From: Oscillospiraceae bacterium
Lineage (GTDB): Bacteria > Bacillota > Clostridia > Oscillospirales > Oscillospiraceae
Assembly (NCBI GenBank): GCA_017465025.1
Contig: JAFTXM010000127.1
Span: 1-32,484, forward strand
Length of the DNA stretch: 32,484 nucleotides
Direction: 5' to 3'
Below are positions 17,184-30,157 of the stretch, piece after piece. A model generated the notes under the pieces. The model was not told the DNA's origin, ran no database searches, and was given only the letters and a program-made list of their open reading frames with translations. The position numbers were made by a program, and so were the translations under genes. Positions within the stretch are counted from its first letter, which is position 1. Each line of letters begins with the position of its first letter.

Positions 17184-17543
17184 TTATTCCAATATATGCT
17201 CCATGCCCTGCTCCACAATGCTTCTCACGTGCTCGTCGGCAAGGGAGTAAAACACCGAGCGGCCCTTTTTCTCGCTTTTTACAAGCTTGCTCTGCTTGAG
17301 TATCTTAAGCTGATGGGAAATGGCGGACACGGTCATGTTCAAGGCCTCAGCCAGATCGCACACGCAGACCTCCGCCTCGAAAAGCACAAAAAGTATCCTC
17401 ATTCTGGTGGAGTCACCGAAGACCTTGAAAAGCTCTGCCAGATCGTAAAGCTGTTCCTCCGGGGGCAGCTTTTCGCGCACTATGCTCAAAAGCTCCTCAT
17501 GTATCTCCCGGCTTTCGCAGCAGTCGATATTATCTCTTGTCAT
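17184..17543 (-). CDS. ArsR/SmtB-family metal-sensing repressor (CadC-like)
   Basis: This 119-residue winged-helix protein has the recognition region LNMTVSAISHQLKILKQSKLV. Both known CadC/SmtB metal sites have candidate ligands. The alpha3 site has Cys-x-Cys in EVCVCDLAE with N-terminal CysCys (DCCES). The alpha5 site has Asp and His in ADEHV and a His 11 residues on (MEH), where CzrA has two. This suggests Zn(II) or Cd(II)/Pb(II) sensing. The ATG at 17543 has GAGGTG 6 nt upstream. It is the last gene of the operon, 10 bp after the ATPase, so repression is autoregulatory. Confidence 0.92.
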   Translation of the reverse strand: MTRDNIDCCESREIHEELLSIVREKLPPEEQLYDLAELFKVFGDSTRMRILFVLFEAEVCVCDLAEALNMTVSAISHQLKILKQSKLVKSEKKGRSVFYSLADEHVRSIVEQGMEHILE

Positions 17544-17553
17544 AAAAGTCACC

Positions 17554-19419
17554 TCAGATATTTTTCACGTTCAGCATCCTTATGGCGTTGAGCACAGCCA
17601 GCACCATAACACCCACATCAGCAAAGATTGCAAACCACATATTGCTCAATCCCAGCGCGGTCAGAACAAGGAATAAAAGCTTTATACCAATGGCAAAAAC
17701 AATGTTTTCATACACAATTCTCATGCATTTTTTTGAAATAGCCACTGCTTTTGCAATTTTACCCGGCTCATCGTCCATCAATACCACATCCGCGGCCTCA
17801 ATTGCCGCGTCAGAGCCGAGAGCGCCCATGGCAATACCGATATCCGCCCGGGAGAGCACAGGCGCGTCGTTTATCCCGTCTCCCACAAAGGCCAGCGCCT
17901 GAGCTTTCGGCATAGATGATAAAAGCTCCTCCACCTTTGTCACCTTATCCTCCGGCAGAAGCCTTGCATATACCTTCCTTATCCCAAGCTCCTTTGCCGT
18001 ATACTGCGCCGCGTTCTCATTGTCGCCGGTCAACATAACTTGATCGTGTATACCCATGGCGCGAAGCTTTTCAAGAGCGGGTGCAGCGCCGTCCTTCGGC
18101 GTGTCGGCGAGGACTATCTGCCCCAGATATTCTCCGTCCCTGCATACATATACGCAAGTTCCGCCTTCCACCTCCTCCGGGCATGAAACGCCAATCGCCT
18201 CCATAAGCCGACGGTTGCCGACGGCCACCGTCCTGCCATCAATACAGGCTTTCACACCGAAGCCGCCCAGTTCCTCAATGTTTTCAATACAGGCAGGCTC
18301 AGGCTTTTTGACGCAGGCGCTTACTATGCTGCGGGCTATTGGGTGGGTGGAGTTGTATTCCACGTGGGCGGCAAGGCTCAAAAGCTCGTCTTTGGAAATG
18401 TTTCTGGCAATAACATCCTTCACGCTGAAGCTGCCCTTAGTGAGCGTACCGGTCTTGTCAAAAACAATGCATTTCACCTTGGAAAGCAGTTCAAGATAGT
18501 TCGAGCCCTTTATCAGTATGCCCTCGCTGCCGGCGCCGCCAAGCCCTGCAAAAAAGCTCAGGGGTACGCTTATCACAAGGGCGCATGGGCAGCTTATTAC
18601 AAGAAAGCTCAAAGCCCTGTATATCCAGTCTCCCCAGTTGGGGGCATCTCCGAAACCGATGCTCACTACTGGCGGTAGCACAGCCAGAGCGAGGGCGGAT
18701 ATACATACTACAGGCGTATAGTACCTTGCAAAGCGGGAGATAAAGCTCTCGCTTTTGCTCTTTCTCTCGGCAGCATTTTCCACCAGCTCCAGTATTCTGG
18801 CTACGGTGGAGTCCTCATAGCGCTTCTCCGTCCGTACCTTCAAAAGCCCCCGGAGATTTACGCTGCCGCTGAGGACGCTGTCGCCGACACCCACATCCCT
18901 GGGCAGACTCTCGCCGGTCAGGGCAGAGCAGTCAAGGCTGCTTTCACCCTCGGTCACTGTGCCGTCAATGGGCAGCCGCTCTCCGGGCAGAACCACGATG
19001 ATGCTGTCAGGGCTGACCTCATCCGGGTCGATTTTGACAAGCTGTCCGTCTTCACTTTCAATATTGGCGTGCGGTGGGCGTATGTCCATGAGGGCAGCTA
19101 TGCTTTTGCGGCTTTTGCCCACGGCAATGCCTTCAAAAAGCTCACCCATCTGGAAAAAGAGCATGACCGCCACGGCCTCTGTAAATTCACCCAGCAGCAG
19201 CGCACCCACGGTAGCCGCCGCCATGAGAAAGCTCTCATCGAATATCTGGCGGTTTATGATGCCGCAAAAAGCCTTTCTCAGAATGTCATGGCCGATAACT
19301 ATGTAGGCGGCAAGCTGCACCGCAGCCCTGAATATGCCCTGAGGAATAAAAAACGCCCCAATAAGCAGCGCAGCGGCGGCAATTATTCTGTAAAATACTT
19401 TTTTCTGCTTTCTGTTCAT
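17554..19419 (-). CDS. P1B-type Zn/Cd/Pb-exporting ATPase lacking its own HMA domain
   Basis: This 621-residue membrane ATPase exports divalent metal. It has TGES (168-171), the CPC motif in SCPCALV (277-279), the phosphorylated Asp321 in DKTGT, the HP motif at 359-360 and GDGINDAP (513-520). Lys580 and Asp601 in the last spans (GIKLLFL, FADVG) are the P1B-2 Zn/Cd specificity residues. The chain begins directly at the first membrane span, so the usual N-terminal metal-binding domain is absent and encoded separately by the abutting upstream gene. ZntA or CadA proteins are normally about 700 residues. Confidence 0.94.
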   Translation of the reverse strand: MNRKQKKVFYRIIAAAALLIGAFFIPQGIFRAAVQLAAYIVIGHDILRKAFCGIINRQIFDESFLMAAATVGALLLGEFTEAVAVMLFFQMGELFEGIAVGKSRKSIAALMDIRPPHANIESEDGQLVKIDPDEVSPDSIIVVLPGERLPIDGTVTEGESSLDCSALTGESLPRDVGVGDSVLSGSVNLRGLLKVRTEKRYEDSTVARILELVENAAERKSKSESFISRFARYYTPVVCISALALAVLPPVVSIGFGDAPNWGDWIYRALSFLVISCPCALVISVPLSFFAGLGGAGSEGILIKGSNYLELLSKVKCIVFDKTGTLTKGSFSVKDVIARNISKDELLSLAAHVEYNSTHPIARSIVSACVKKPEPACIENIEELGGFGVKACIDGRTVAVGNRRLMEAIGVSCPEEVEGGTCVYVCRDGEYLGQIVLADTPKDGAAPALEKLRAMGIHDQVMLTGDNENAAQYTAKELGIRKVYARLLPEDKVTKVEELLSSMPKAQALAFVGDGINDAPVLSRADIGIAMGALGSDAAIEAADVVLMDDEPGKIAKAVAISKKCMRIVYENIVFAIGIKLLFLVLTALGLSNMWFAIFADVGVMVLAVLNAIRMLNVKNI

Positions 19420-19638
19420 TCAGTAGTATATCTCGCAGTCAGGCTCAATTTTGCGGCACTTTTTAAGCACCTCGCCCATAACCTTCTTCACGTCCGCACC
19501 CTCTGCAAACTCCACGCTCATCTTCAGCGCCATATAGTTTACACTGGCAGACACAATGCCCTCAACGGTGTTGGCAGCCTGCTCCATTTTGGCGGCGCAG
19601 TTGGCACAGTCCACGTCTATCATGTAGGTTTTTTTCAT
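19420..19638 (-). CDS. Free-standing HMA metal-binding protein
   Basis: This 72-residue ferredoxin-like metallochaperone has DVDCANCAAKME (Cys11, Cys14). The Asp just before the first Cys is the Zn-type form seen in ZntA. The TGA stop is immediately followed by the ATPase ATG, so the domain is a physically separated version of the N-terminal HMA domain that most such pumps carry. The ATG at 19638 has GAGGG 7 nt upstream; the longer frame to 19680 would read through the operator. Confidence 0.92.
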   Translation of the reverse strand: MKKTYMIDVDCANCAAKMEQAANTVEGIVSASVNYMALKMSVEFAEGADVKKVMGEVLKKCRKIEPDCEIYY

Positions 19639-19662
19639 ATCTCTGCCCTCATATCTTTCAAT

Positions 19663-19838: not shown

Positions 19839-20006
19839 TCAGAGATGTGAGTCTCTTTTTATATTGTCGTAGTGCTTGAGCAGGAAAGGCTCGATTGCAG
19901 CGGTGAGCTTCATGTCCAGATTGAAAAAATACACTGTGAAGGTCACAACGAAAAGAGCCAGCACCACAGCCACAAGGCTGAGAATAATTTTCCAAATTAC
20001 TTTCAT
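19839..20006 (-). CDS. 55-residue single-span membrane protein
   Basis: A short open frame encodes a 55-residue protein: a Lys/Trp-flanked N-terminus, one hydrophobic helix (about residues 5-28, with LSLVAVVLALFVVTF) and a charged tail ending KHYDNIKRDSHL. The ribosome binding site AAGGAGG (20011-20017) is near perfect and overlaps the stop codon of the dehydratase-family gene upstream, so the two are almost certainly translated together. It is the last gene before the terminator. I do not recognise a named family. A membrane anchor or assembly factor for the enzyme complex is conceivable but not shown. Confidence 0.8.
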   Translation of the reverse strand: MKVIWKIILSLVAVVLALFVVTFTVYFFNLDMKLTAAIEPFLLKHYDNIKRDSHL

Positions 20007-20015
20007 ATTTCCTCC

Positions 20016-21578
20016 TTACCAGGACTCCTGATCCGGCAGCACTTCCAGCGTTGGATCGATGGGCTCTTCGCCGAATACGGTACGCATGTAGTTATTTACC
20101 TGATCGCGCACACCCTGTCTCGATACCACACGGGGGTCAAAAAGGTCGTGAGTGACCCAAACAAGGTGAATACCCCGCTCCCTTGCCATTTCCTCAAACT
20201 GCCCGTGGAAGCCGGAGAGAGCCTTGCAGGCCATATGCTCCCAGAGTATTACCATGTCAGCGTTGAACTCCTCACAGAACTCCCACAGCTCATCCAGCAG
20301 CACCTTGTAGCCGCCGTGGGTGCGGTTGCGCATTATCATGTTCTCGGTGAGCCATGCCATGTCGTAAATGGCGGTCTCCCGGTTTTCGGGGGTGTCTTCC
20401 TCTGCCAGCCTTCTGGTGGACACCATGGACAGCATATCCGTCAGCGGCACTATGCCCCAGCAGTTGAGAAGCCAGAGAAGGAAGTCCATATAGTAGTGGG
20501 ACTGCACACCCCAGACGATGGCCCGGTGGCGGTATTCCTTGGCGGCGCGCATCTTCTTTTTGTAGGCTTTTTCCGCAAGGGCGGTGATCTTCCTGTCGGC
20601 CTTTTCAAACTCGGGAATCTTGCCGCAGATAGCCATGTAGTTTGTCTCGGTGTAAAGAGCGAGGTTGGAGCCGAATACCTGGGGATAGTCGGTCTTGTTC
20701 ATCTCAAGCCAGCCGAGGCGGCTTTCGGTGGCCACATTGACGCGACGGGCACATTCAAAGTAGTACTTCCAGTCCCACTTTTCGCCGGTGTGCTCTTCGA
20801 TGAAGGCAATGGCGTTTCTTATCTCCTGAGCGGCGTATTCCTGTACATCGTCCTCACGGTGGCGCAGGGGGGCTGCCAGCTGGAAGCAGGGCACGCCGTC
20901 CTCCAGCTCAAGGCGCTTTGCAATAACGCCGTTGCCAAGGAGAGAGCCGTCACAGGTGGTGTTGCACTGGATGGCGCAGGCGCCCAGAATAGGCGCATCG
21001 TCGTCAATGGAAACGCCGGCTTCGGCTGCGGGCATGGGGCACACGTCACCGGCAAGGCCGTAGTCCTGAGCCACGTCCAGATAGTGCAGCACAGCGTGCT
21101 GGTTCTGGAGTACAGGCACATAGGTGGAAACGGTCTCACGGCTGAGGCCCTTGAGGGTGGGGAAGCCCATCATTACGGCGGTCATCTCGTTTTCGTCCAC
21201 CAGTACGCACTTTTTGGAGAATTCCACATCGTTGCCGATGCGCCTGTCGGCTCTGAAAAGGTTAGCCAGAAGCTTTGCCACGTCGTCCACAACAAGGTCA
21301 AACTCGGTGTGGGCAATGCGGAGATATTCGCCTCTCAAGCCCTGGGTGTGGCGATCAACCATCATGGGCACTGCTAGATAGTTTGCCATCCAGCGGTAGC
21401 GGAACATGGCCTTTATGTTGCGCGGGCACATAAGGAACTTGCCCAGAATGAGCATTATCTTCAGCCAGCAGGAGTAGTCGTACATGGTGTCTGCAAGGCC
21501 GCGCCACTCGCGGCGTTTGCGGACTCTGCCGTTGGTATAGAAATCGCCGAGCCTGTCGGCGCCTATCTGCTTAGCCAT
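20016..21578 (-). CDS. 2-hydroxyacyl-CoA dehydratase family subunit (HgdA/BcrB-like, alpha)
   Basis: This 520-residue protein belongs by pattern to the HgdA/HgdB/BcrBC superfamily, whose members bind a [4Fe-4S] cluster and handle low-potential radical chemistry on acyl-CoA or related substrates. Candidate cluster cysteines are in CAIQCNTTCDG (about 201-209) and in WEHMACK near residue 460. It is longer than typical subunits (about 400-480 residues) and has an extra N-terminal part. The ATG at 21578 has GGGAGG 8 nt upstream and overlaps the beta-subunit stop by 8 bp. The substrate cannot be inferred. The required ATPase activator is not in the window. Confidence 0.8.
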   Translation of the reverse strand: MAKQIGADRLGDFYTNGRVRKRREWRGLADTMYDYSCWLKIMLILGKFLMCPRNIKAMFRYRWMANYLAVPMMVDRHTQGLRGEYLRIAHTEFDLVVDDVAKLLANLFRADRRIGNDVEFSKKCVLVDENEMTAVMMGFPTLKGLSRETVSTYVPVLQNQHAVLHYLDVAQDYGLAGDVCPMPAAEAGVSIDDDAPILGACAIQCNTTCDGSLLGNGVIAKRLELEDGVPCFQLAAPLRHREDDVQEYAAQEIRNAIAFIEEHTGEKWDWKYYFECARRVNVATESRLGWLEMNKTDYPQVFGSNLALYTETNYMAICGKIPEFEKADRKITALAEKAYKKKMRAAKEYRHRAIVWGVQSHYYMDFLLWLLNCWGIVPLTDMLSMVSTRRLAEEDTPENRETAIYDMAWLTENMIMRNRTHGGYKVLLDELWEFCEEFNADMVILWEHMACKALSGFHGQFEEMARERGIHLVWVTHDLFDPRVVSRQGVRDQVNNYMRTVFGEEPIDPTLEVLPDQESW

Positions 21579-22773
21579 TTGCACTACCTCCCTGAATTTT
21601 CTTTATCTCTATGCTCTCAACAAAAGCCTGTACGCGGGTGCGCATCTGGCCGGAGCCTGCGATGGAATAGGGCCTGTCAACGGAGAGCACAGGGTAGCCG
21701 AAGTCATCGTGGAGAACATGGGAGCCTACCATACGCTCATAGGCCCAGGGGTCGCAGAACTTTATCTGCTCGTAGATGATGCCGTCGGCATTGTACTCTT
21801 TGGCAAGAGCGTTCACATACTCACGCCTTGCCACGTTCTTGCCGGTGTTCATGTAGCGGGGGCACTGGCTGGCCTCCATGTAGTGTCGGCATATCTGGGT
21901 CAGGGCGTCCTCACTGTCGTTGAGTTCAATGGGGTTTCTGCCGGGGAGAGAACCGTAGCAGAAGCGGTCGGCACAGACGTAAGCACCGGTCTCCTCAATA
22001 AGCTTTATAAAGTCCACATCGTCGATCTCCGAGCCGACAACAACAACTCTTGCCCGGAAAGCGTCCTTCTCGTCCGGCTCGCGGAGCTTAAGCTCCTCAA
22101 GGGTTTCTTCCAGCTTGTCGAGAATAAGGTGCTTGGGAGCGGCATAGGTGGCAAGGGTGATTATGTGGAACTCATAGCCTGTGATACGGGGCTTGTCGCC
22201 CTTTCTGAATTCGCCTATCTCACGGATAAGGCGGCAGACCTTGTTGTGTTCCTCAACCGCTTTGCGCAGGGCCGCATCGGAAACGTCAATGCCGAAGGTC
22301 TTGCTGAGCGGGTCAAGGATATGGTTTCTGCACTGTAGAGTGTAGAGAGCAAGGCCGTTGTCGTCACATTTCATGGGTATCTCAAGGTACTGGAAGAAAA
22401 ACTTCTCCTTGTCCTTGCCCACGGCCTTGAGAAGCTCCATATTCTCAATGCAGCGGTTCATCATGGTGCAGCCGTCCGGAGTGATTATACAGTCGGCAAA
22501 GTTGAAGCCGCCCTCGATGGCGCGCTCCAGCAGAGCTCTTGAATACTCGCAGAGAAAGCTTGTCAGGTAATAGGTGCCCATCTCCATGGAGCCGGTTCTC
22601 GGCGCGCGCAGACGCACGGAAAAGCAGCCCTCAAGGTTCAAAAGCGGTTCGGGGATATTCTCGCAGGAATAGGCGGCGCATATTTTGCCTTCGCTCTGCG
22701 CCTGAGCAATAAGCGGGTTGAAGGCATTTTGCAGAAGATCCTCAAAGTATATAAGATGCTTCAGGTCTTTCAT
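21571..22773 (-). CDS. 2-hydroxyacyl-CoA dehydratase family subunit (HgdB/BcrC-like, beta)
   Basis: This 400-residue subunit has the three family cysteines at conserved places: Cys75 in FLCEYSR, Cys102 in PDGCTMM, and Cys340 in IKFCDPW. It ends with the family block SGQMRTRVQAFVE. These ligate the [4Fe-4S] cluster that receives a high-energy electron from an ATPase activator in HgdC-, FldI- or BcrAD-type systems. AAAGGAGAC precedes the ATG at 22773, 26 bp after hypA. With the alpha subunit it should form a heterodimer. Double-cubane-cluster proteins of the same superfamily are an alternative. Confidence 0.85.
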   Translation of the reverse strand: MKDLKHLIYFEDLLQNAFNPLIAQAQSEGKICAAYSCENIPEPLLNLEGCFSVRLRAPRTGSMEMGTYYLTSFLCEYSRALLERAIEGGFNFADCIITPDGCTMMNRCIENMELLKAVGKDKEKFFFQYLEIPMKCDDNGLALYTLQCRNHILDPLSKTFGIDVSDAALRKAVEEHNKVCRLIREIGEFRKGDKPRITGYEFHIITLATYAAPKHLILDKLEETLEELKLREPDEKDAFRARVVVVGSEIDDVDFIKLIEETGAYVCADRFCYGSLPGRNPIELNDSEDALTQICRHYMEASQCPRYMNTGKNVARREYVNALAKEYNADGIIYEQIKFCDPWAYERMVGSHVLHDDFGYPVLSVDRPYSIAGSGQMRTRVQAFVESIEIKKIQGGSANG

Positions 22774-22799
22774 GTCAGTCTCCTTTTATAACGGGGCGG

Positions 22800-23144
22800 T
22801 CAGCACGCTTCGATTTCCTTTATGTTCATCTCGTTGCCCTGCTGCAGCCAGGTGTTGCCGCTGCCGCAGTGGGGACAGGTTTTCCCGTATTTCACGGTGG
22901 GATAGGTCTTTTTACAGTTATCGCACCATGTGACAGCCGGGATAGTCTCGCATTTAAGCTCAGAACCCTCTATAAGCGGCGTTTTCTTGGCATACCAGTT
23001 CCAGCAGTCTATAAGGTACTCAGGGACGATGCCGGAGACTTCGCCAAACTCCAGCGTTACAGAGCTGACCTTAGTCAGTTCGTTTTCCTTTGCAATTTCC
23101 TCCACCTGCTTGATGACATAGGTGACAATACTCAGTTCGTGCAT
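22800..23144 (-). CDS. hypA: HypA/HybF-type nickel/zinc metallochaperone
   Basis: This 114-residue protein has the HypA N-terminus MHELS (nickel ligands at Met1 and His2) and a zinc ribbon CDNC...CPHC (Cys74, 77, 90, 93). HypA delivers nickel to NiFe-hydrogenase or, in some bacteria, urease. The ATG at 23144 (AAAGGAG upstream) gives the exact HypA N-terminus; the frame open to 23165 does not. No hydrogenase, urease, hypB, hypC, hypD, hypE or hypF gene is in the window. It is embedded in a dehydratase-family operon, so it may have been recruited for another metalloenzyme or simply be a Zn-ribbon scaffold. Confidence 0.88.
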   Translation of the reverse strand: MHELSIVTYVIKQVEEIAKENELTKVSSVTLEFGEVSGIVPEYLIDCWNWYAKKTPLIEGSELKCETIPAVTWCDNCKKTYPTVKYGKTCPHCGSGNTWLQQGNEMNIKEIEAC

Positions 23145-23163
23145 AATGCTCCTTTCACTGCGC

Positions 23164-23193
23164 ATACAGGCACGGACAAAGCCGTGCCTGTAT
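23164..23193 (-). other. Intercistronic 12-bp hairpin before hypA
   Basis: ATACAGGCACGG (23164-23175) pairs perfectly with CCGTGCCTGTAT (23182-23193) around a 6-nt loop. No T-run follows on either strand, so it is not an intrinsic terminator. It sits 14 bp after the oxidoreductase stop codon and 20 bp before the hypA start, close enough to influence mRNA stability or hypA translation. Confidence 0.75.
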
Positions 23194-23207
23194 CTCAGTC
23201 ATACGTA

Positions 23208-25973
23208 TTACTTGCCGGCAACTTTCTTCTTGAGGATCTTCACCGCGCGCTTTGCAGCGTAGGGGATGATCTCCTTGAATTTATCCTCGGCGGGAACCAT
23301 GTGAGAGTTCTGGGGACGGGTTCTCTTCAGGTGGATGGCGTCAAATTCACATCTGGTGGTGCAGACACCGCAGCCGATGCACTTGTTGGGGTCAACAATG
23401 CTGCGGCCGCAGCTGAGGCAGCGGGAGGCCTCGGCCTTGATCTGCTCCTCAGTGAAGGTCACGCGCTCATCGCACATGGTCAGCACCTTGGCCTTGTCAA
23501 TGCCGTGCTCGGCGCGCTCAGGCTTCTTGTAGCTTTCGGCGGGAAGAACAAGATTCTTCTTGTCAAGCTCGGTGAACTGGCGCAGGTTGCGGTGCAGAGT
23601 CAGGGACTGACCCACGTTTACAAAGCGGTGGATGGACACAGCGCCCTCGCGGCCGTTGGCAATGGCGTCAATGGTGTAGAGAGGACCGGTGGCGCAGTCG
23701 CCGCCGACGAAGATATCGTCCTCGGCGCTCTGGAAGGTGATGTTGTCGCAGGCGATGAGCTTGCCGTTTGCGGTAGCGGCCTTGGTGCCGGTGAGTATCT
23801 CGCCGTAGTCGGAGACCTGACCGATGGATACCAGCACGTTGGAGCAGGGGACAGTGATGGTGTCGTTCTCATCGTACTTGGGTCTGAATCTGCCGTCTGC
23901 ATCTCTTACGGACAGGCAGCGCATAAACTCAACGCCGGTGACCTTGCCGTTCTCGCCAAGGATGCGCTTGGGACCCCAGCAGTTGTTGTAGGTAACGCCG
24001 TCTGCAAGGCCGGATTCCTTTTCCTCAACCACGGTGGGCATCTCTTCGTCCTTCTCAAGGCAGTAAAGATCCACCTTGGCAGAGCCCATACGCAGTGCGG
24101 TACGGGCCACGTCGATAGCTGCGTTGCCGCCGCCGATGACGATGGTGTTGCCCTCAAGGGGCTTCTGCTCGTTCTTGTTTACAGCGCGCAGGAAGTCAAG
24201 ACCGCCCACAACGCCTTCCAGCTCCTCACCCTCAATGTTGAGCTTGAGAGCCTTCTGCAGACCCACAGCCACATAGAAGGCCTTGTAGCCCTCGGCGCGA
24301 AGCTGCTCAATGGTGACATCCTTGCCGACCTCAACGCCGCATCTGAACTCAACGCCCATCTCTCGCAGCACGTCTATCTCGCTCTTTACAACTTCCTTGT
24401 CAACGCGGAAGCTGGGAATACCGTTTACAAGCATACCGCCGGGAACGGCTTCCTTCTCGAATACGGTGGGCTTGTAGCCTTCGATCGCCAGGAAGTATGC
24501 ACAGGACATACCGGCGGGGCCGCCGCCGATGATGGCGATCTTCTGCTCGAAGGGAGCGTAGGTGCAGGAATTCATGGGAGGAATGTAGCGGTGCTCATCC
24601 TTCATATCCTGCTCGGCGATGAACTTCTTTATCTCGTCGATGGACAGGGGCTTATCAACAGTGCCGCGGGTGCAGGCGTCCTCGCAGTACTTACGGCAGA
24701 TAGAGCCGCAGATGGCGGGGAAGGGGTTATCCTTCTTGATGAGCTTGAGAGCGTCCTTGTAGCGGCCCTCGCTGGCCATCTTTATGTAGCCCTGGATTGC
24801 AATGTGTGCAGGGCAGGCCACCTTGCAGGGAGCAGTGCCGGTGGGGTAGGTCTGGATGGAGCCGATATTGTTTCTGTAGTTTTTGTCCCACTTGTGCTCG
24901 CCCCAGGCGTTGTCATCGGGCAGCTCCTGACGGGGATACTCGATGGGGCCTTCAGTGGTGCAAAGCTTCTGACCCAGACGCACAGCGCCGGAGGGGCAGG
25001 TCTCAACGCACTTGCCGCAGGCCACGCACTTCTCGCCGTCGCTCTCAGCCACGTAGGCGGAGGCGGAGAGGTTGGGGGTGTTGAAAAGCTGGGAGGTACG
25101 AAGAGCGTTGCAGACACCCAGAGCGCAGTTGCAGATGCCGAATATCTTGTTCTCGCCGTCAATGTTGGTCACTTCGTGGACATAGCCTCTGTCCTCGGCC
25201 TTCTGGAGTATTTCCATGGCCTCTTCGTAGGTGATGTCGTGGCCCTTGCCGGTCTCGCGGCAGTAGTCGGCAAAGTCGCCAACGCCTATGCACCACTCGG
25301 CCTCAATGTCGCCGGTGCCTTCGCCGCGGATGCGCTGCTGCTTACGGCAGGAGCAGACCGCAACGCCGATGTGGCCTTCGTATTTTTTCAGCCAGTGGCT
25401 CAGATGCTCAATGGGGAGAGACTGGCTCTCAGCGGGGATGGCCTTCTCAACGGGGATAACGTGCATGCCTATGCCTGCGCCGCCGGGAGGCACCAGCTCG
25501 GTGATACCGGCCAGAGGCAGATATGCCATGCGCTCGAAGAAGTCGGCAATCTGGGGCTGCTGGTCGCACATATCGGGGTGGATGAGCATGATCTCTGCGC
25601 TGCCGGGAACGAACATATCCAGCACCCAGCGCTTTTCATGGTTGGGGTTCTTGCCGTCCAGGTTTTCCCAGTGGTACTCCACAAGGCCGCAGTCGCAGAT
25701 GCAGTCAAGAGCCTTGGTCAGACGCTCATCATCCCAGCCGGTACGCTCTTTCAGCACGCCGAAAGTGACGGGCTTACGCTTTTTCATATTAAGCGCCAGA
25801 TCAAGGGTGTCCTCCTCGCACTGCACGCCGTACTTGTCGCGTACAAATATAAGTGCGCGGTTTATGCCCCAGTATTCAGGGGCGTCGGGTGAGAGCTTTT
25901 CAATGCCCAGCAAGGCTTCTTTTCTGTCGGTTATGACTTTCGCTAATTTGTAGATTTTTTCATCTCTGGTCAT
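23208..25973 (-). CDS. Multi-cluster Fe-S/FAD/NAD(P) oxidoreductase (GltD-like core with ferredoxin domains)
   Basis: This 921-residue cytosolic fusion protein has these parts in order. A helical/winged-helix-like N-terminus (about 1-120) comes first. A Cys-rich module follows with CSCRK near 207-211 and ICNCALGVC near 280-288. A ferredoxin motif CVACGKCVETCP lies near 316-327, and a GltD-type N-terminal Fe-S domain from PCKVACPAHIAIQGYIKMA near 382 to CGSICRKYCEDAC. The FAD fold IIGGGPAGMSCAY is near 481, and an NAD(P) fold VIGGGNAAIDVART near 612. C-terminal ferredoxin clusters are CLSCG and CIGCGVCTTRC near 852-875. It probably passes electrons between NAD(P)H and ferredoxin-like partners, here the dehydratase-family subunits. 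The ATG at 25973 follows AGGAAGGA; it is the first gene of the operon. Confidence 0.87.
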   Translation of the reverse strand: MTRDEKIYKLAKVITDRKEALLGIEKLSPDAPEYWGINRALIFVRDKYGVQCEEDTLDLALNMKKRKPVTFGVLKERTGWDDERLTKALDCICDCGLVEYHWENLDGKNPNHEKRWVLDMFVPGSAEIMLIHPDMCDQQPQIADFFERMAYLPLAGITELVPPGGAGIGMHVIPVEKAIPAESQSLPIEHLSHWLKKYEGHIGVAVCSCRKQQRIRGEGTGDIEAEWCIGVGDFADYCRETGKGHDITYEEAMEILQKAEDRGYVHEVTNIDGENKIFGICNCALGVCNALRTSQLFNTPNLSASAYVAESDGEKCVACGKCVETCPSGAVRLGQKLCTTEGPIEYPRQELPDDNAWGEHKWDKNYRNNIGSIQTYPTGTAPCKVACPAHIAIQGYIKMASEGRYKDALKLIKKDNPFPAICGSICRKYCEDACTRGTVDKPLSIDEIKKFIAEQDMKDEHRYIPPMNSCTYAPFEQKIAIIGGGPAGMSCAYFLAIEGYKPTVFEKEAVPGGMLVNGIPSFRVDKEVVKSEIDVLREMGVEFRCGVEVGKDVTIEQLRAEGYKAFYVAVGLQKALKLNIEGEELEGVVGGLDFLRAVNKNEQKPLEGNTIVIGGGNAAIDVARTALRMGSAKVDLYCLEKDEEMPTVVEEKESGLADGVTYNNCWGPKRILGENGKVTGVEFMRCLSVRDADGRFRPKYDENDTITVPCSNVLVSIGQVSDYGEILTGTKAATANGKLIACDNITFQSAEDDIFVGGDCATGPLYTIDAIANGREGAVSIHRFVNVGQSLTLHRNLRQFTELDKKNLVLPAESYKKPERAEHGIDKAKVLTMCDERVTFTEEQIKAEASRCLSCGRSIVDPNKCIGCGVCTTRCEFDAIHLKRTRPQNSHMVPAEDKFKEIIPYAAKRAVKILKKKVAGK

Positions 25974-26244: not shown

Positions 26245-26946
26245 ATGGCCGCTGAAAAAAAGAATAAGCTGAGCGTGCGGGAGAGCTTTGTGCGCCAGCT
26301 TGAAAACAAAATAATCTCCGGCAAGCTTAAACCGGGGGACAAGCTGCCTCCCGCAAAGGAGCTTTGCTCTTTGATGGGTGTCAGCCTCACCGTGGTCAAC
26401 GCAGGGATGAGCGAGCTTGCAAACAAGGGCTTTATTGAAACTGTCCCCCGCCGGGGCAGCTATGTGGCCGATTACAGGAAAAAAGGCAATACTGATACCT
26501 TTATTTCGGTCATGCGCTATAACGGCGGAACTCTCACCGCGTCTGAGGCCCGGTCCTTTATAGAAACCAGAATGGCTCTTGACCCCTTTGTGATTGGCCT
26601 TGTGGTGGACAGATGCAGCGATAAGGAAATAGAGGAGCTTCTGCCCCTGTGTGAGAAAATGCAGCAGGAGCGGGATATGGACTTGCTTTGCTCTCTGGTG
26701 ACGGATTTTTACTACCGGCTTGCCTCCATCAGCGGCAACACCTTCATGTCTCTGCTCTACCGCTCCACAGCCGAGCCTCAGAGCTGCGTCTACCGGATGT
26801 ATTTTGAAAAAAACGGCAGCGAGACCACGATCAACACCTGCAAAAAGCTTGTTGAGCTTCTTCTGGCGAGGGATGCAGAGGGTGCAAAATCTCTTATGAT
26901 TACAGCCCTCAATACTGCACTGCAGGGCGAAATGGCGGTAGTATGA
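26245..26946 (+). CDS. GntR-family regulator, FadR/FCD subfamily with degenerate metal site
   Basis: This 233-residue protein has an N-terminal winged helix (VRQLENKIISGKLKPGDKLP, then LMGVSLTVVNAGMSELANKG and PRRGSYV) and an all-helical FCD ligand domain (about 90-230). The His residues that bind metal in many FCD proteins are missing: the usual FH after the Asp is FYYRLA, and the C-terminal helix positions hold Thr/Asn rather than His. It may therefore sense its ligand without metal. AAGGAGCG precedes the ATG at 26245. It diverges from the oxidoreductase operon with shared regulatory DNA of about 270 bp and is followed by a lone transporter gene. Confidence 0.88.
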   Translation: MAAEKKNKLSVRESFVRQLENKIISGKLKPGDKLPPAKELCSLMGVSLTVVNAGMSELANKGFIETVPRRGSYVADYRKKGNTDTFISVMRYNGGTLTASEARSFIETRMALDPFVIGLVVDRCSDKEIEELLPLCEKMQQERDMDLLCSLVTDFYYRLASISGNTFMSLLYRSTAEPQSCVYRMYFEKNGSETTINTCKKLVELLLARDAEGAKSLMITALNTALQGEMAVV

Positions 26947-27057: not shown

Positions 27058-28164
27058 ATGGGCGGCTTCACATCCTTTCTCAAGCGCAAAAACATCGTCT
27101 TTTCCGCAAAACGCTATTTTATAGATGCCATGAGCGCCATGGCTCAGGGTCTTTTCTGCACACTGCTGGTGGGCACTATCCTCAACACCCTTGGCACTCA
27201 GTTCAATATCGGCTTTTTGAAGGCCGTTATAGTAAGCATAGGCAGCGGTGAAGGGTCCGCCAGCTATACCATCGGCGGCCTTGCCTCGGCGATGGTCGGC
27301 CCGGGCATGGCGGTGGCCATCGGTTCTGCACTGCAGGCGCCGCCAATGGTGCTCTTCTCCCTTATCCCTGTGGGCTTTGCCACCAATGCCATGGGCGGCG
27401 CAGGCGGCCCTCTGGCGGTGTTCTTTGTGGCCATTATCGCTGCGGAGTTCGGCAAGGCCGTCAGCAAGGAAACCAAGGTGGATATCCTTGTCACCCCCAT
27501 TGTCACCATCCTCATCGGTGTGGGTGCTGCGGCGCTCATCGCCGAGCCTGTGGGGGCGGCGGCCTCCGCCTTCGGAAAAATGGTCATGTGGGCTACCGAG
27601 CTGCACCCATTCTTTATGGGCATTGTGGTGTCCGTGGTGGTGGGCATAGTTCTGACTCTGCCCATATCCAGCGCTGCTATCTGCGCGGCTCTGGGCCTTG
27701 TGGGTCTGGCGGGCGGCGCTGCCGTTGCAGGCTGCTGCGCCCAGATGGTGGGCTTTGCTGTCATGAGCTTTAAGGAGAACCGCTGGGGCGGCCTTGTGGC
27801 CCAGGGTATAGGCACCAGTATGCTGCAAATGGGCAATATCGTGAAAAATCCCCGTATCTGGATACCGCCCACACTGGCTGCCGCCGTTACCGGCCCTGTT
27901 GCCACCTGCGTTTTCAAGCTTGAGATGAACGGCGCTGCCATATCCTCCGGCATGGGTACCTGCGGCTTTGTGGGGCAAATCGGCGTGTATTCCGGCTGGC
28001 TTGCGGATGTGGCCAGCGGCGCAAAGGCTGCCATCACAGGCTTTGACTGGCTGGGTCTTGTGCTTGTCTGCTTTGTGCTGCCCGCTCTTCTCAGCTGGCT
28101 TTTTGCCCTGCCTCTGCGCAAATGGGGCTGGATAGGCGAGAACGATTTGAAGCTGGACCTGTAA
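27058..28164 (+). CDS. PTS_EIIC_2-type membrane transporter (PfoR-like family)
   Basis: This 368-residue, very hydrophobic, Gly/Ala-rich protein has about ten predicted spans. It begins with FLKRKNIVFSAKRYFIDAMS and contains GGLASAMVGPGMAVAIG, NAMGGAGGPLAVFF and GTSMLQMGN, a pattern I associate with the family annotated PTS_EIIC_2, to which the perfringolysin regulator PfoR was assigned. No EIIA or EIIB gene is nearby, and whether such lone proteins use the phosphotransferase system is unclear. AAGGAG precedes the ATG at 27058 with slightly long spacing. Divergent neighbours suggest uptake or export of the substrate of the dehydratase-family operon. Confidence 0.82.
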   Translation: MGGFTSFLKRKNIVFSAKRYFIDAMSAMAQGLFCTLLVGTILNTLGTQFNIGFLKAVIVSIGSGEGSASYTIGGLASAMVGPGMAVAIGSALQAPPMVLFSLIPVGFATNAMGGAGGPLAVFFVAIIAAEFGKAVSKETKVDILVTPIVTILIGVGAAALIAEPVGAAASAFGKMVMWATELHPFFMGIVVSVVVGIVLTLPISSAAICAALGLVGLAGGAAVAGCCAQMVGFAVMSFKENRWGGLVAQGIGTSMLQMGNIVKNPRIWIPPTLAAAVTGPVATCVFKLEMNGAAISSGMGTCGFVGQIGVYSGWLADVASGAKAAITGFDWLGLVLVCFVLPALLSWLFALPLRKWGWIGENDLKLDL

Positions 28165-28231: not shown

Positions 28232-30139
28232 TTATTTTATCTTCAGCCGCTTGAGGGTCTTTTCCGTGGGTATGCCATTATCATCCCAGCCACGGGCCTT
28301 GTAGTATGTGCGCTTCATTGTCTCAAGGGGAACTTTTGTTGTAGGGTCATTGGGGTCCTGTGGCACATCGGTCAGGCGCTTTGGCAGCCTGTCGTTTTCC
28401 GCGCTTATCCCGAAGCGGGTGTTTATAAGCCGCTCCATGGTGTAGCCCCGTTCTCCGATTTCAATATAGCGGCCTAAGTCCATCTTCATGCCAAGGGCGT
28501 GCTTTATAATGCCCGTATGGTGGATAATGGGCAGATTTACCGCAAACAGGCGGGGGAAACGGTTGATAAAGCGCATGGCCCAGCCCAGGTGGGGCAGAAG
28601 GGCGTTGACGCTCTTTGTCAGAATACCGTTGGGCTTTGCCAGCAGCGCTTTGGGGAAAAAGGCGTAGGAGGTGAAAATGCACTGCCCGGAGGCGGAAATA
28701 GCTTCCATCAGGTCTTGCAGCAGCATGGTAAGGTCGGCCTTGGCCTTGGGGGTCTGAGGGTCGGCATTGAGCCCCAGACCCTCGGCGATGACCGCATAGC
28801 CGCCGTTTATATGGCAGCCGCCCCGGTTTGCAACGGCGTAGCCCAGCCCCTGACCCACGGCGCGCCTCGGCTCGTAGGCGGCAAGCTCCAGACCCTTGCT
28901 GTGTATGGCAAAGTCACGGCCTCCGTACTTTTCGCTGAGCCTTTTGCTGCCCTCGGCAAGCTCATCACCGATGCCGCGGCGGTGGGCGATGTCCTCAAAT
29001 ATCGTGGGCAGATTATCACACTTGCCAAATTCAAGGCCATTTTTCCATAAACCCTTCTCGTTGGCCTCCATTGCCCATGCGATAGTATTGGCGCAGGATA
29101 TGGTGTCCAGGCCCAGCTCGTCTGCAAGGTAGTTAAGCTCCAGCACGCTCTCAATGTCACGGTTCAGAAGATTGCTGCCCAGCAGCACCAGCGTTTCAAG
29201 CTCCGGGCCTTTGACAAGCTTATTCTCTACCGTCACGTTTCTGCGGCATTTTATTGTGCATCCCAGACAGCCGGAGTTATTCACATTGTACTTTTCCGCC
29301 AGAGCTTCGCCGCTGACACTCTCAAAATCCTCAAACTGACCTGCGGCGTAGTTTCTTGTTGCCAGAAGGGAGTGGGCCTGCATGGAGCTTACAAGCCCCG
29401 CCGTACCCATATTGGGCAGCTGGCTGCCTGTCAGCGGATGATTTTTAAGATAGGCCACCCACTTTTTGATATATGCAGCGGTTTTTTCCCGGTCGTATAC
29501 TTCAAGGCTTTTGCTTCCGCATACGGTAATGGCCTTAAGACCCTTCCAGCCCAGCACAGCGCCCATGCCTGTGCGACCGGCGGCTCTTTCATCGGATATG
29601 ACGGCGGCGTATTTTACAAGATTTTCCCCGGCAGGGCCTATGCACAGCCTGCCGAAATTCTTTTTGCCTGTCAGCTCTGAGAGCATTTGATGGCACTCTC
29701 CGGTGCTCGTGCCCCAAAGCTCTCCCGCGTCGTGGAAGATAAATTCATCGTCGTTTATCTCAAGCCATTTATGCCCCTTGCACTTACCCTTGATGATAAG
29801 CGCGTCATATCCGGCCTTTTTCAGGTGAAAGCCGAAGCTTCCACCGCAGTTGGAGGAGGCCAGAATACCGGTCAGCGGTGAAATGGCGGAGATATCAAAG
29901 CGGGCGGAACTGGGCGCACCGGTGCCGGTCAGCGGCCCTGTGGCGATTACAAGCCAGTTATCCTCGGAGAAAGCCGCTTCCTGTCCTGTCAGGTGCTCAC
30001 AGAGGATTTTTGCCGCCATTATCTTACCGCCCAGATAAAGTTCTCTTTGCTCATCACTCCAGGGGTATTCACATACGGACTGGCTGCCAAGGTCGATTTC
30101 CATTACCCTGCCTGCGTATCCGCAATATTTGCTTTTCAT
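28232..30139 (-). CDS. Tungsten-containing aldehyde:ferredoxin oxidoreductase (AOR family)
   Basis: This 635-residue enzyme oxidises aldehydes to acids with ferredoxin as acceptor, or the reverse. The tungstopterin-binding N-domain begins with GRVMEIDLGSQ and includes GPLTGTGAPSSARFD and GRTGMGAVLGWKGLKA. The [4Fe-4S] ligands are Cys291, Cys294 and Cys298 (CLGCTIKC) and Cys349 in DTISCANT. The length fits the family. The ATG at 30139 has AAGGTGG 8 nt upstream; a GTG at 30151 overlaps that site. It starts 18 bp after recG and ends at the strong terminator. Benzoyl-CoA-reductase BamB-type proteins belong to the same superfamily, but no Bam partners are seen. Confidence 0.92.
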   Translation of the reverse strand: MKSKYCGYAGRVMEIDLGSQSVCEYPWSDEQRELYLGGKIMAAKILCEHLTGQEAAFSEDNWLVIATGPLTGTGAPSSARFDISAISPLTGILASSNCGGSFGFHLKKAGYDALIIKGKCKGHKWLEINDDEFIFHDAGELWGTSTGECHQMLSELTGKKNFGRLCIGPAGENLVKYAAVISDERAAGRTGMGAVLGWKGLKAITVCGSKSLEVYDREKTAAYIKKWVAYLKNHPLTGSQLPNMGTAGLVSSMQAHSLLATRNYAAGQFEDFESVSGEALAEKYNVNNSGCLGCTIKCRRNVTVENKLVKGPELETLVLLGSNLLNRDIESVLELNYLADELGLDTISCANTIAWAMEANEKGLWKNGLEFGKCDNLPTIFEDIAHRRGIGDELAEGSKRLSEKYGGRDFAIHSKGLELAAYEPRRAVGQGLGYAVANRGGCHINGGYAVIAEGLGLNADPQTPKAKADLTMLLQDLMEAISASGQCIFTSYAFFPKALLAKPNGILTKSVNALLPHLGWAMRFINRFPRLFAVNLPIIHHTGIIKHALGMKMDLGRYIEIGERGYTMERLINTRFGISAENDRLPKRLTDVPQDPNDPTTKVPLETMKRTYYKARGWDDNGIPTEKTLKRLKIK

Positions 30140-30157
30140 GGGTTTAACCACCTTTTC

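Follow-up and report, generated by a model that had tools for sequence, protein, structure and literature searches.

Related systems and the operon

The closest described relatives of the system reported here are found in the superfamily of class I benzoyl-CoA reductases, 2-hydroxyacyl-CoA dehydratases and double-cubane cluster proteins (DCCPs), and in the family of IsrA. Previous studies, cited here from the accessible parts of the papers, showed that BzdN, the small subunit of a benzoyl-CoA reductase, holds its [8Fe-9S] cluster by Cys36/73/100/263/293/327, and that DCCPs are homodimers which reduce acetylene, azide and hydrazine with unclear physiological meaning (PMC11971306). IsrA, a putative isoprene reductase of Acetobacterium wieringae with HypA and HypB as neighbours, combines PF14691 and PF07992 with two further ferredoxin sites and with a Cys6 site containing CxC motifs at 180/182 and 254/256; HypA lies near 73% and HypB near 56% of 988 IsrA homologues, which are numerous and uncharacterised and for which a nickel site has been suggested (PMC10134865). 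AadN, an Nfn-like protein, was proposed to feed the benzoyl-CoA reductase of R. palustris, which uses ATP nonetheless (PMC9973337). Here we describe a five-gene operon from an Oscillospiraceae bacterium (assembly GCA_017465025.1, contig JAFTXM010000127.1, 32,484 nucleotides, hereafter the window), which encodes a 921-residue IsrA-like oxidoreductase (FLAV), a HypA homologue, a small and a large PF06050 subunit (HGDsm and HGDlg) and a 55-residue membrane protein (TM55). The source is a metagenome-assembled genome, 71.7% complete, in 143 contigs, the window being contig C111.

All five genes lie on the minus strand and span 19839-25973. The coordinates and lengths given by an initial annotation, made from the letters alone, were all confirmed, and the Pfam domains agree with the types it had named, including the NAD(P)/FAD/multi-ferredoxin architecture of FLAV and the HypA family of its neighbour. 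From the genes themselves, their ligand residues, predicted folds and co-occurrence, and an activator gene found elsewhere in the genome, we consider it fairly probable that the operon encodes a double-cubane reductase that depends on ATP, is tethered to the membrane and is activated in trans, packed together with an IsrA-type oxidoreductase and the HypA of the latter.

A literature search, with subscription papers mostly outside its reach, found no paper on this gene set. The impression of the initial annotation that no such system had been described therefore stands for the union with a double-cubane pair, which was not found in print; HypA and the 921-residue protein, however, have been described as an IsrA/HypA(/HypB) neighbourhood, according to the accessible part of PMC10134865. 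The operon links a putative double-cubane enzyme, an IsrA-like protein and a conserved membrane peptide, and its relatives, whose genomes are without a TIGR01702 CO dehydrogenase in 41/42 cases, add CooC, HypB and an ACS domain that stands alone. A gene set is thereby defined for testing the roles of the double-cubane enzyme and of orphan nickel chaperones.

The PF06050 subunit pair

Both subunits match PF06050 (HGDsm 293 bits, HGDlg 107 bits; Pfam cut-off 28.4). HGDsm aligns with BzdN (E 1.6e-26), DCCP (about 1e-16) and HadC (1.3e-15), and the six ligands of BzdN fall, in order, on the six HGDsm cysteines listed in Table 1. Counted by eye in the same alignments, DCCP has 6/6 of these ligands, HadC 4/6 and MbdN 3/6. 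Among 92 HGDsm sequences, five double-cubane columns are cysteine in 92/92 and the sixth in 91/91 filled positions.

Searched as a single sequence, HGDlg was remote from every solved chain (best E 0.015), and its profile matches DCCP, MbdO, BzdO and HadB. C182 and C211 align with C95 and C128 of BzdO, and C453 with C380 (weakly for BzdO, more clearly for MbdO); these three and C375 are all cysteine in 100/100 HGDlg sequences. The fold search with the AlphaFold model of HGDlg (pLDDT 78), of which the 20 rows at E 0.001 were considered without the weaker nitrogenase-like ones, gave BzdO as the best match (8s02_C, E 2.0e-12, TMq 0.59), followed by HadB and MbdO (HadB 3o3m_A, E 4.8e-11), then DCCP and BzdN. 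Residues and model together suggest that the pair is built like BzdNO, with a storage cluster in HGDsm and an open catalytic cluster in HGDlg.

Like the class I benzoyl-CoA reductase of the Bzd type (BzdNOPQ; PDB 8s02), the pair would be a heterodimer of two PF06050 subunits, the smaller carrying the double-cubane ligands and the larger holding its catalytic cluster by three cysteines; the activators of both belong to one ATPase family. Unlike Bzd, it has Ser for His131, a longer N-terminus (HGDlg exceeds BzdO by about 84 residues in the alignment), a single activator gene and a membrane peptide, and benzoate pathway genes were not seen in the window. With DCCP/DCCP-R (PDB 6eno, 7yyl) it shares the six double-cubane ligands, here in HGDsm, and an HgdC-type activator, while the DCCP homodimer is replaced by two unlike subunits, of which the large one lacks the outer ligands. 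The (R)-2-hydroxyisocaproyl-CoA dehydratase HadBC has the same fold and two-subunit make-up, but HadC is without two of the six ligands of HGDsm. By score, the pair falls outside the Bzd, Had and DCCP equivalog families: bzd-type TIGR03190 gave 93.4 against a cut-off of 453.8, the DCCP family NF040772 135 and 29 bits against 350, NF052456 (HadC) 74 against 700 and NF052455 19.6 against 750.

The same comparison bears on whether the operon encodes a non-redox 2-hydroxyacyl-CoA dehydratase of the HadBC/HgdAB type, serving amino acid fermentation. PF06050 on both subunits, the nearness of the HGDlg model to HadB and an acetyl-CoA hydrolase/transferase family gene on contig C142 of the same genome would agree with it; HGDsm, however, keeps six double-cubane cysteines where HadC keeps four, the HadC family score is far below its cut-off, and a CoA transferase was not found among the window proteins scanned. 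Plain dehydratase was rejected on ligand pattern and family scores and is, in our judgement, very improbable, so that of the options raised by the initial annotation a double-cubane-type reductase is favoured.

TM55 matched no Pfam family. Of its 91 relatives above 40 bits, 90 contain a 19-residue stretch with mean hydropathy of at least 1.6 and 88 contain NLDMK. Gene presence was counted by profile search in relatives' loci, which are the best 80 of 205, so that the counts lean to close relatives. HGDsm adjoins HGDlg in 71/71 loci with enough flank and TM55 is present in 66/68, adjacency which points to an operon association beyond chance. Its sequences mark TM55 as a conserved, predicted single-span companion of the pair (40/41 well-flanked loci), and it may tether the pair to the membrane. 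A link to plasmalogen synthase (PlsA/PlsR), prompted by TM55, was not adopted; the long double-BcrAD frames are separate genes in many genomes. Such frames of about 1400 residues with two BcrAD domains, which we take to be PlsA-like, occur in G067:C3, G068:C1 and many other genomes.

The activator

For the window, the absence of an activator ATPase noted in the initial annotation is borne out: PF01869 matches in this genome lie on contigs C142, C27 and C81 only, and a tblastn search of the window with the activator as query gave nothing better than E 1.5. For the system it is not, as shown by a gene on C142, pieces on C81 and C27, and activators inside the operons of close relatives. The genome contains four HGD pairs, on C111, C142, C30 and C81. 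On C142 the order is CooC-like ATPase, HGDsm, HGDlg, activator and ACS-like protein. On C81, HGDsm, HGDlg and a TM55-like gene are followed by an activator gene that the contig edge cuts off after its start, and C27 opens with the rest of an activator; the two pieces, 96.3% (270 nt) and 97.7% (521 nt) identical to the C142 activator in DNA, appear to be one gene. HGDlg of the window shares 39% and 34% identity with its counterparts on C142 and C81, so that one activator type (210 bits with TIGR00241; cut-off 125.4) accompanies distant pairs. Near-identical activator pieces at contig ends were seen at L134:4088-4897, L137:1-522 and L135:3-275, and equal edge pieces also in G023, G030, G032 and G034.

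In relatives, the activator lies inside the operon in 28/73 loci with at least 1 kb downstream. These include relatives with HGDlg 77-84% identical to that of the window, such as L015, L018 and L055; in L015 and L018 (84% and 83% identical) it stands directly behind HGDlg. In the Butyrivibrio genomes G067 and G069, the pair and TM55 have no activator nearby, and CooC-like, activator and ACS-like genes stand together on another contig. A wider comparison used 42 genomes chosen by hand (17/37 genomes of the same genus and 25 of the 80 loci), 41 of which contain PF01869 (39 above cut-off; longer paralogues included). We infer from this distribution that an activator encoded elsewhere acts on the window pair in trans.

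The initial annotation had instead suggested that no ATPase activator is needed, the 921-residue protein passing electrons of low potential straight from NAD(P)H to the enzyme, perhaps through flavin-based bifurcation. The NfnL-like module of FLAV, the window without an activator and the proposed role of AadN as supplier of benzoyl-CoA reductase in R. palustris (PMC9973337, accessible part) are in line with this suggestion, as is one genome (G071, CAG:103) that has this operon type and no PF01869 match at E 0.001. FLAV does share Fer4_20 and the FAD/NAD(P) module with NfnL and AadN, but unlike these electron suppliers it has an additional Cys6 domain and ferredoxin sites, and no NfnS part was found in the protein or the operon; a single FAD/NAD(P) module without a second flavin subunit speaks against bifurcation as far as the operon and the FLAV domains go. 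The distribution of the activator also stands against the suggestion: close relatives encode it within the operon, the source genome has a complete copy besides fragments of another, PF01869 is nearly universal in the 42 genomes, and a short activator lies within 1.5 kb of the ACS-like gene in 33/37 genomes with that gene (among the matches listed). A bifurcating NADH route in place of the activator was rejected as first choice on this distribution, and we judge it improbable that the system works without one; an activator encoded elsewhere in the same genome is largely what had been named beforehand as counting against that idea.

FLAV and HypA

Residues 380-860 of FLAV are tied by sequence search to the GltD/NfnL family (5jca, NfnL-like, E 1.5e-61), and its N-terminal cysteines C207, C209, C228, C281, C283 and C288 are all present in 75/75 homologues. 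Set beside IsrA by the published description, in its accessible part, FLAV resembles it in length, domain order, the Cys6 site with its CxC spacing (two motifs 74 residues apart, as in IsrA) and the HypA neighbour, and it shows the sequence features compared for IsrA clade 9: about 900 residues, Cys6 with two CxC, Fer4_20 with FAD/NAD(P), and two further ferredoxin sites. Unlike the IsrA locus, FLAV is packed with a double-cubane pair and TM55, and an isr-type ferredoxin is not in the operon.

HypA matches PF01155 with 123.6 bits (cut-off 28.9) and TIGR00100 with 81.3 bits, just below its cut-off of 88.1; the MHE and two CxxC motifs are found in 53/53 HypA frames. HypB of this genome is encoded on other contigs, C94 and C126, and not beside the FLAV and HypA of the window. 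Because IsrA homologues usually adjoin HypA/HypB and a nickel site has been suggested for them, the HypA of the window would, by analogy, most simply serve FLAV.

How closely FLAV belongs to the pair is less evident, and the operon may hold two unrelated enzymes that have only their regulation in common: a double-cubane reductase and, apart from it, a nickel-served C=C reductase of the IsrA type. FLAV adjoins HGD in 33/75 examined cases of a chosen set. FLAV-HypA also occurs alone: 25 of the 42 FLAVs without HGD have HypA (some of the regions were picked for this), pairs at C43 and C95 of the source genome are without HGD in the stretches examined, and the 988 IsrA homologues have mainly HypA/HypB neighbours (PMC10134865, accessible part). 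Arguing for a tie, FLAV-HypA has joined the pair in different orders, upstream in the window, L045, L072, L086, L087 and L140, downstream in L015, L018 and L055, and divergently in L012. On a FLAV tree, built by a quick method without mixture model and in which two long branches meet, the HGD-adjacent label needs 12 changes against a shuffled mean of 24.7 (0/500 as low), near-copies contributing to this value. The repeated union in different orders and the non-random distribution on the tree suggest a functional tie, and we hold two separate enzymes to be the less probable account, though one of real weight. In L086 (2680-8349), two tandem FLAV genes precede the HGD pair, the first strongly diverged (end branch 0.72).

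Proposed mechanism and its weighing

In the proposed mechanism, the operon product would be a low-potential reductase of the superfamily named above. Electrons from NAD(P)H or ferredoxin would pass to a one-electron ATPase activator, supplied in trans by the locus of CooC, the HGD pair, the activator and the ACS-like protein and by the second activator copy. ATP hydrolysis would then drive single electrons into an [8Fe-9S] storage cluster of HGDsm, as in DCCP reductase and BzdPQ, and HGDlg would reduce the substrate at a catalytic [4Fe-4S] cluster with an open site, as its residues suggest, while TM55 would fix HGDsm-HGDlg at the membrane. The cluster types, tether, trans activation and electron path are thus put forward conditionally. 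FLAV, its Cys6 site possibly served by HypA (with HypB encoded elsewhere), may be the electron input, reducing a carrier that feeds the activator, or a second reductase acting on the product or substrate of the HGD step.

The initial annotation had proposed to examine conservation of the five-gene order. In 41 loci with 4.5 kb on both sides, we counted HGDsm in 41, TM55 in 40, FLAV in 20, HypA in 18, the activator in 15, and CooC-like and ACS-like genes in 13 each. Several observations weigh against a trans-activated double-cubane reductase working with FLAV. FLAV is not nearby in 21 of these 41 loci and the activator in 26; 42/75 FLAVs have no HGD neighbour (40 of the regions were picked mostly away from known pairs); and G071, with the window-type operon at locus L045, gave no PF01869 match at E 0.001. 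Of the catalytic residues Glu65 and His131 of the bzd-type enzyme, the one located in the alignment, His131 of BzdO, is replaced by Ser214 in 99/100 HGDlg, and the chemistry should therefore differ from aromatic ring reduction. Neither a CoA ligase nor a CoA transferase was found among the window proteins scanned, so that the window offers no clue to the substrate.

CooC, the ACS-like protein and nickel

The gene set is present in Butyrivibrio strains and other gut clostridia. The CooC-like ATPase that accompanies it matches the CooC structure by profile (PDB 3kje, E 3.8e-20) and carries a CYC motif in 28/28 sequences. The ACS-like protein, of 240 residues, matches PF03598 (34.4 bits; cut-off 24), with CxxCx5C in 30/30; its model (pLDDT 81) has fold matches at E <=0.001 that are all ACS or CO dehydrogenase (CODH)/ACS, 22/22, and phmmer against the PDB found no ACS (best E 0.58). 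In seven loci, of which five bear the title Lachnospiraceae, CooC has a HypB upstream, and the two of these seven HypBs that were scanned pass TIGR00073 (233 and 237 bits; cut-off 121.2). On C142, an acetyl-CoA hydrolase/transferase family gene (PF13336, PF02550; L134:7382-8755, plus strand) lies about 1.5 kb past the ACS-like gene.

In the 42 genomes, a CooC-like ATPase was found in 39, PF03598 in 37, FLAV in 41 and HypB above cut-off in 39. For the co-location counts we took 58 PF01869 rows of short activator-like frames and pieces at contig edges (long double-domain frames, weak partial matches and unlisted rows left out), 54 HypB rows above cut-off and the PF00374 list, with 40 rows, 40/43 rows (two of G075:C34 and one G000 fragment left out) and 102 rows from the other partner tables. 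CooC-like, activator and ACS-like genes stand together in 27/42 genomes, among the matches listed. In G071, the CooC-like gene adjoins the ACS-like gene.

As with the accessories of CODH/ACS, a CooC-like ATPase (CxC) and an ACS-domain protein accompany the activator, in relatives and on C142; unlike CODH/ACS, only 1/42 genomes has TIGR01702, and the ACS-like protein has 240 residues against about 730 in ACS. CO dehydrogenase was rejected as the reason for CooC, TIGR01702 being found in G075 only, and [NiFe] hydrogenase as the reason for HypA/HypB, PF00374 being absent from 17/42 genomes; the matches in the other 25 are short frames, mostly covering the first 70 model positions only. Sixteen genomes have neither PF00374 nor TIGR01702, and among the matches listed HypB is found in 15 of them, CooC-like in 14, FLAV in 15, the activator in 15 and ACS-like in 14. 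The set being near-complete there, CooC and HypA/HypB would in these genomes serve something besides CO dehydrogenase and [NiFe] hydrogenase, for which the double-cubane/IsrA-like system is one candidate alongside other nickel enzymes such as urease and lactate racemase. The accessible part of a paper on 'Candidatus Galacturonibacter' (PMC7000372), considered as a CODH-less parallel, held nothing on these genes.

A bolder reading, which we regard as doubtful, is that the full set (HypB, CooC, HGDsm, HGDlg, activator, TM55, ACS-domain protein, IsrA-like protein and HypA) forms one nickel-dependent, ATP-driven, membrane-bound enzyme system. CooC and HypA/HypB would then help to place nickel in a double-cubane-family or IsrA cluster, and the 240-residue ACS-domain protein would act on a CoA- or C1-level intermediate or carry a cluster. 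If true, such a system would add a class of nickel enzymes beyond CO dehydrogenase, ACS, hydrogenase and urease, and one that is widespread among gut clostridia.

Operon layout and neighbouring genes

From FLAV to TM55, the intergenic distances are 63, 26, -14 and 9 bases, and purine-rich sites, judged by eye, lie ahead of the gene starts. Because the gaps are tight and such sites precede the starts, the five genes are likely one transcription unit. From its position, the divergent GntR/FCD gene is the probable regulator of the operon.

Table 1. Features of the operon and its flanks in the window
Feature	Position	Strand	Domains, residues and remarks
FLAV, 921-aa IsrA-like NAD(P)H/FAD/Fe-S oxidoreductase	23208..25973	-	Pfam PF14691, PF07992, Fer4; order: N-terminal Cys6 site, Fer4, Fer4_20, FAD/NAD(P) module, C-terminal Fer4
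HypA, nickel metallochaperone family	22800..23144	-	PF01155; MHE N-terminus and two CxxC
HGDsm, 400-aa PF06050 subunit	21571..22773	-	six double-cubane cysteines C37, C75, C102, C272, C304, C340
HGDlg, 522-aa PF06050 subunit, BzdO/HadB-like	20016..21584	-	cluster cysteines C182, C211, C453 and invariant C375
TM55, 55-aa single-span membrane protein (predicted)	19839..20006	-	NLDMK after span
GntR/FCD regulator, divergent from operon	26245..26946	+	related regulator near operons in L055, L062, L067, L069, L074, L081
Presumed ArsR-type frame, P-type metal ATPase, heavy-metal-associated domain protein	17184-19641	-	downstream of TM55
PTS_EIIC_2 transporter	27058-28164	+	PF13303; adjoins GntR gene
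Aldehyde:ferredoxin oxidoreductase family protein	28232-30151	-	PF01314, PF02730

On its left side the window contains a sugar-type neighbourhood with FGGY kinases, an ABC transporter, an aldolase, SDR, MFS and aldo/keto reductase proteins, and a gene that is presumably recG also lies in the window. The aldehyde:ferredoxin oxidoreductase family protein near the operon had no relative in the other loci searched, and an AMP-ligase lies near the operon of L088. Relatives of the PTS_EIIC_2 transporter, a possible substrate or product transporter, were found close behind TM55 in L100, L106 and L112. Relatives of the frame that we take to be ArsR-type, of the metal ATPase and of the heavy-metal-associated protein all come after HypA in L055; in the source genome, the FLAV-HypA pair of C43 has a metal ATPase fragment close by.

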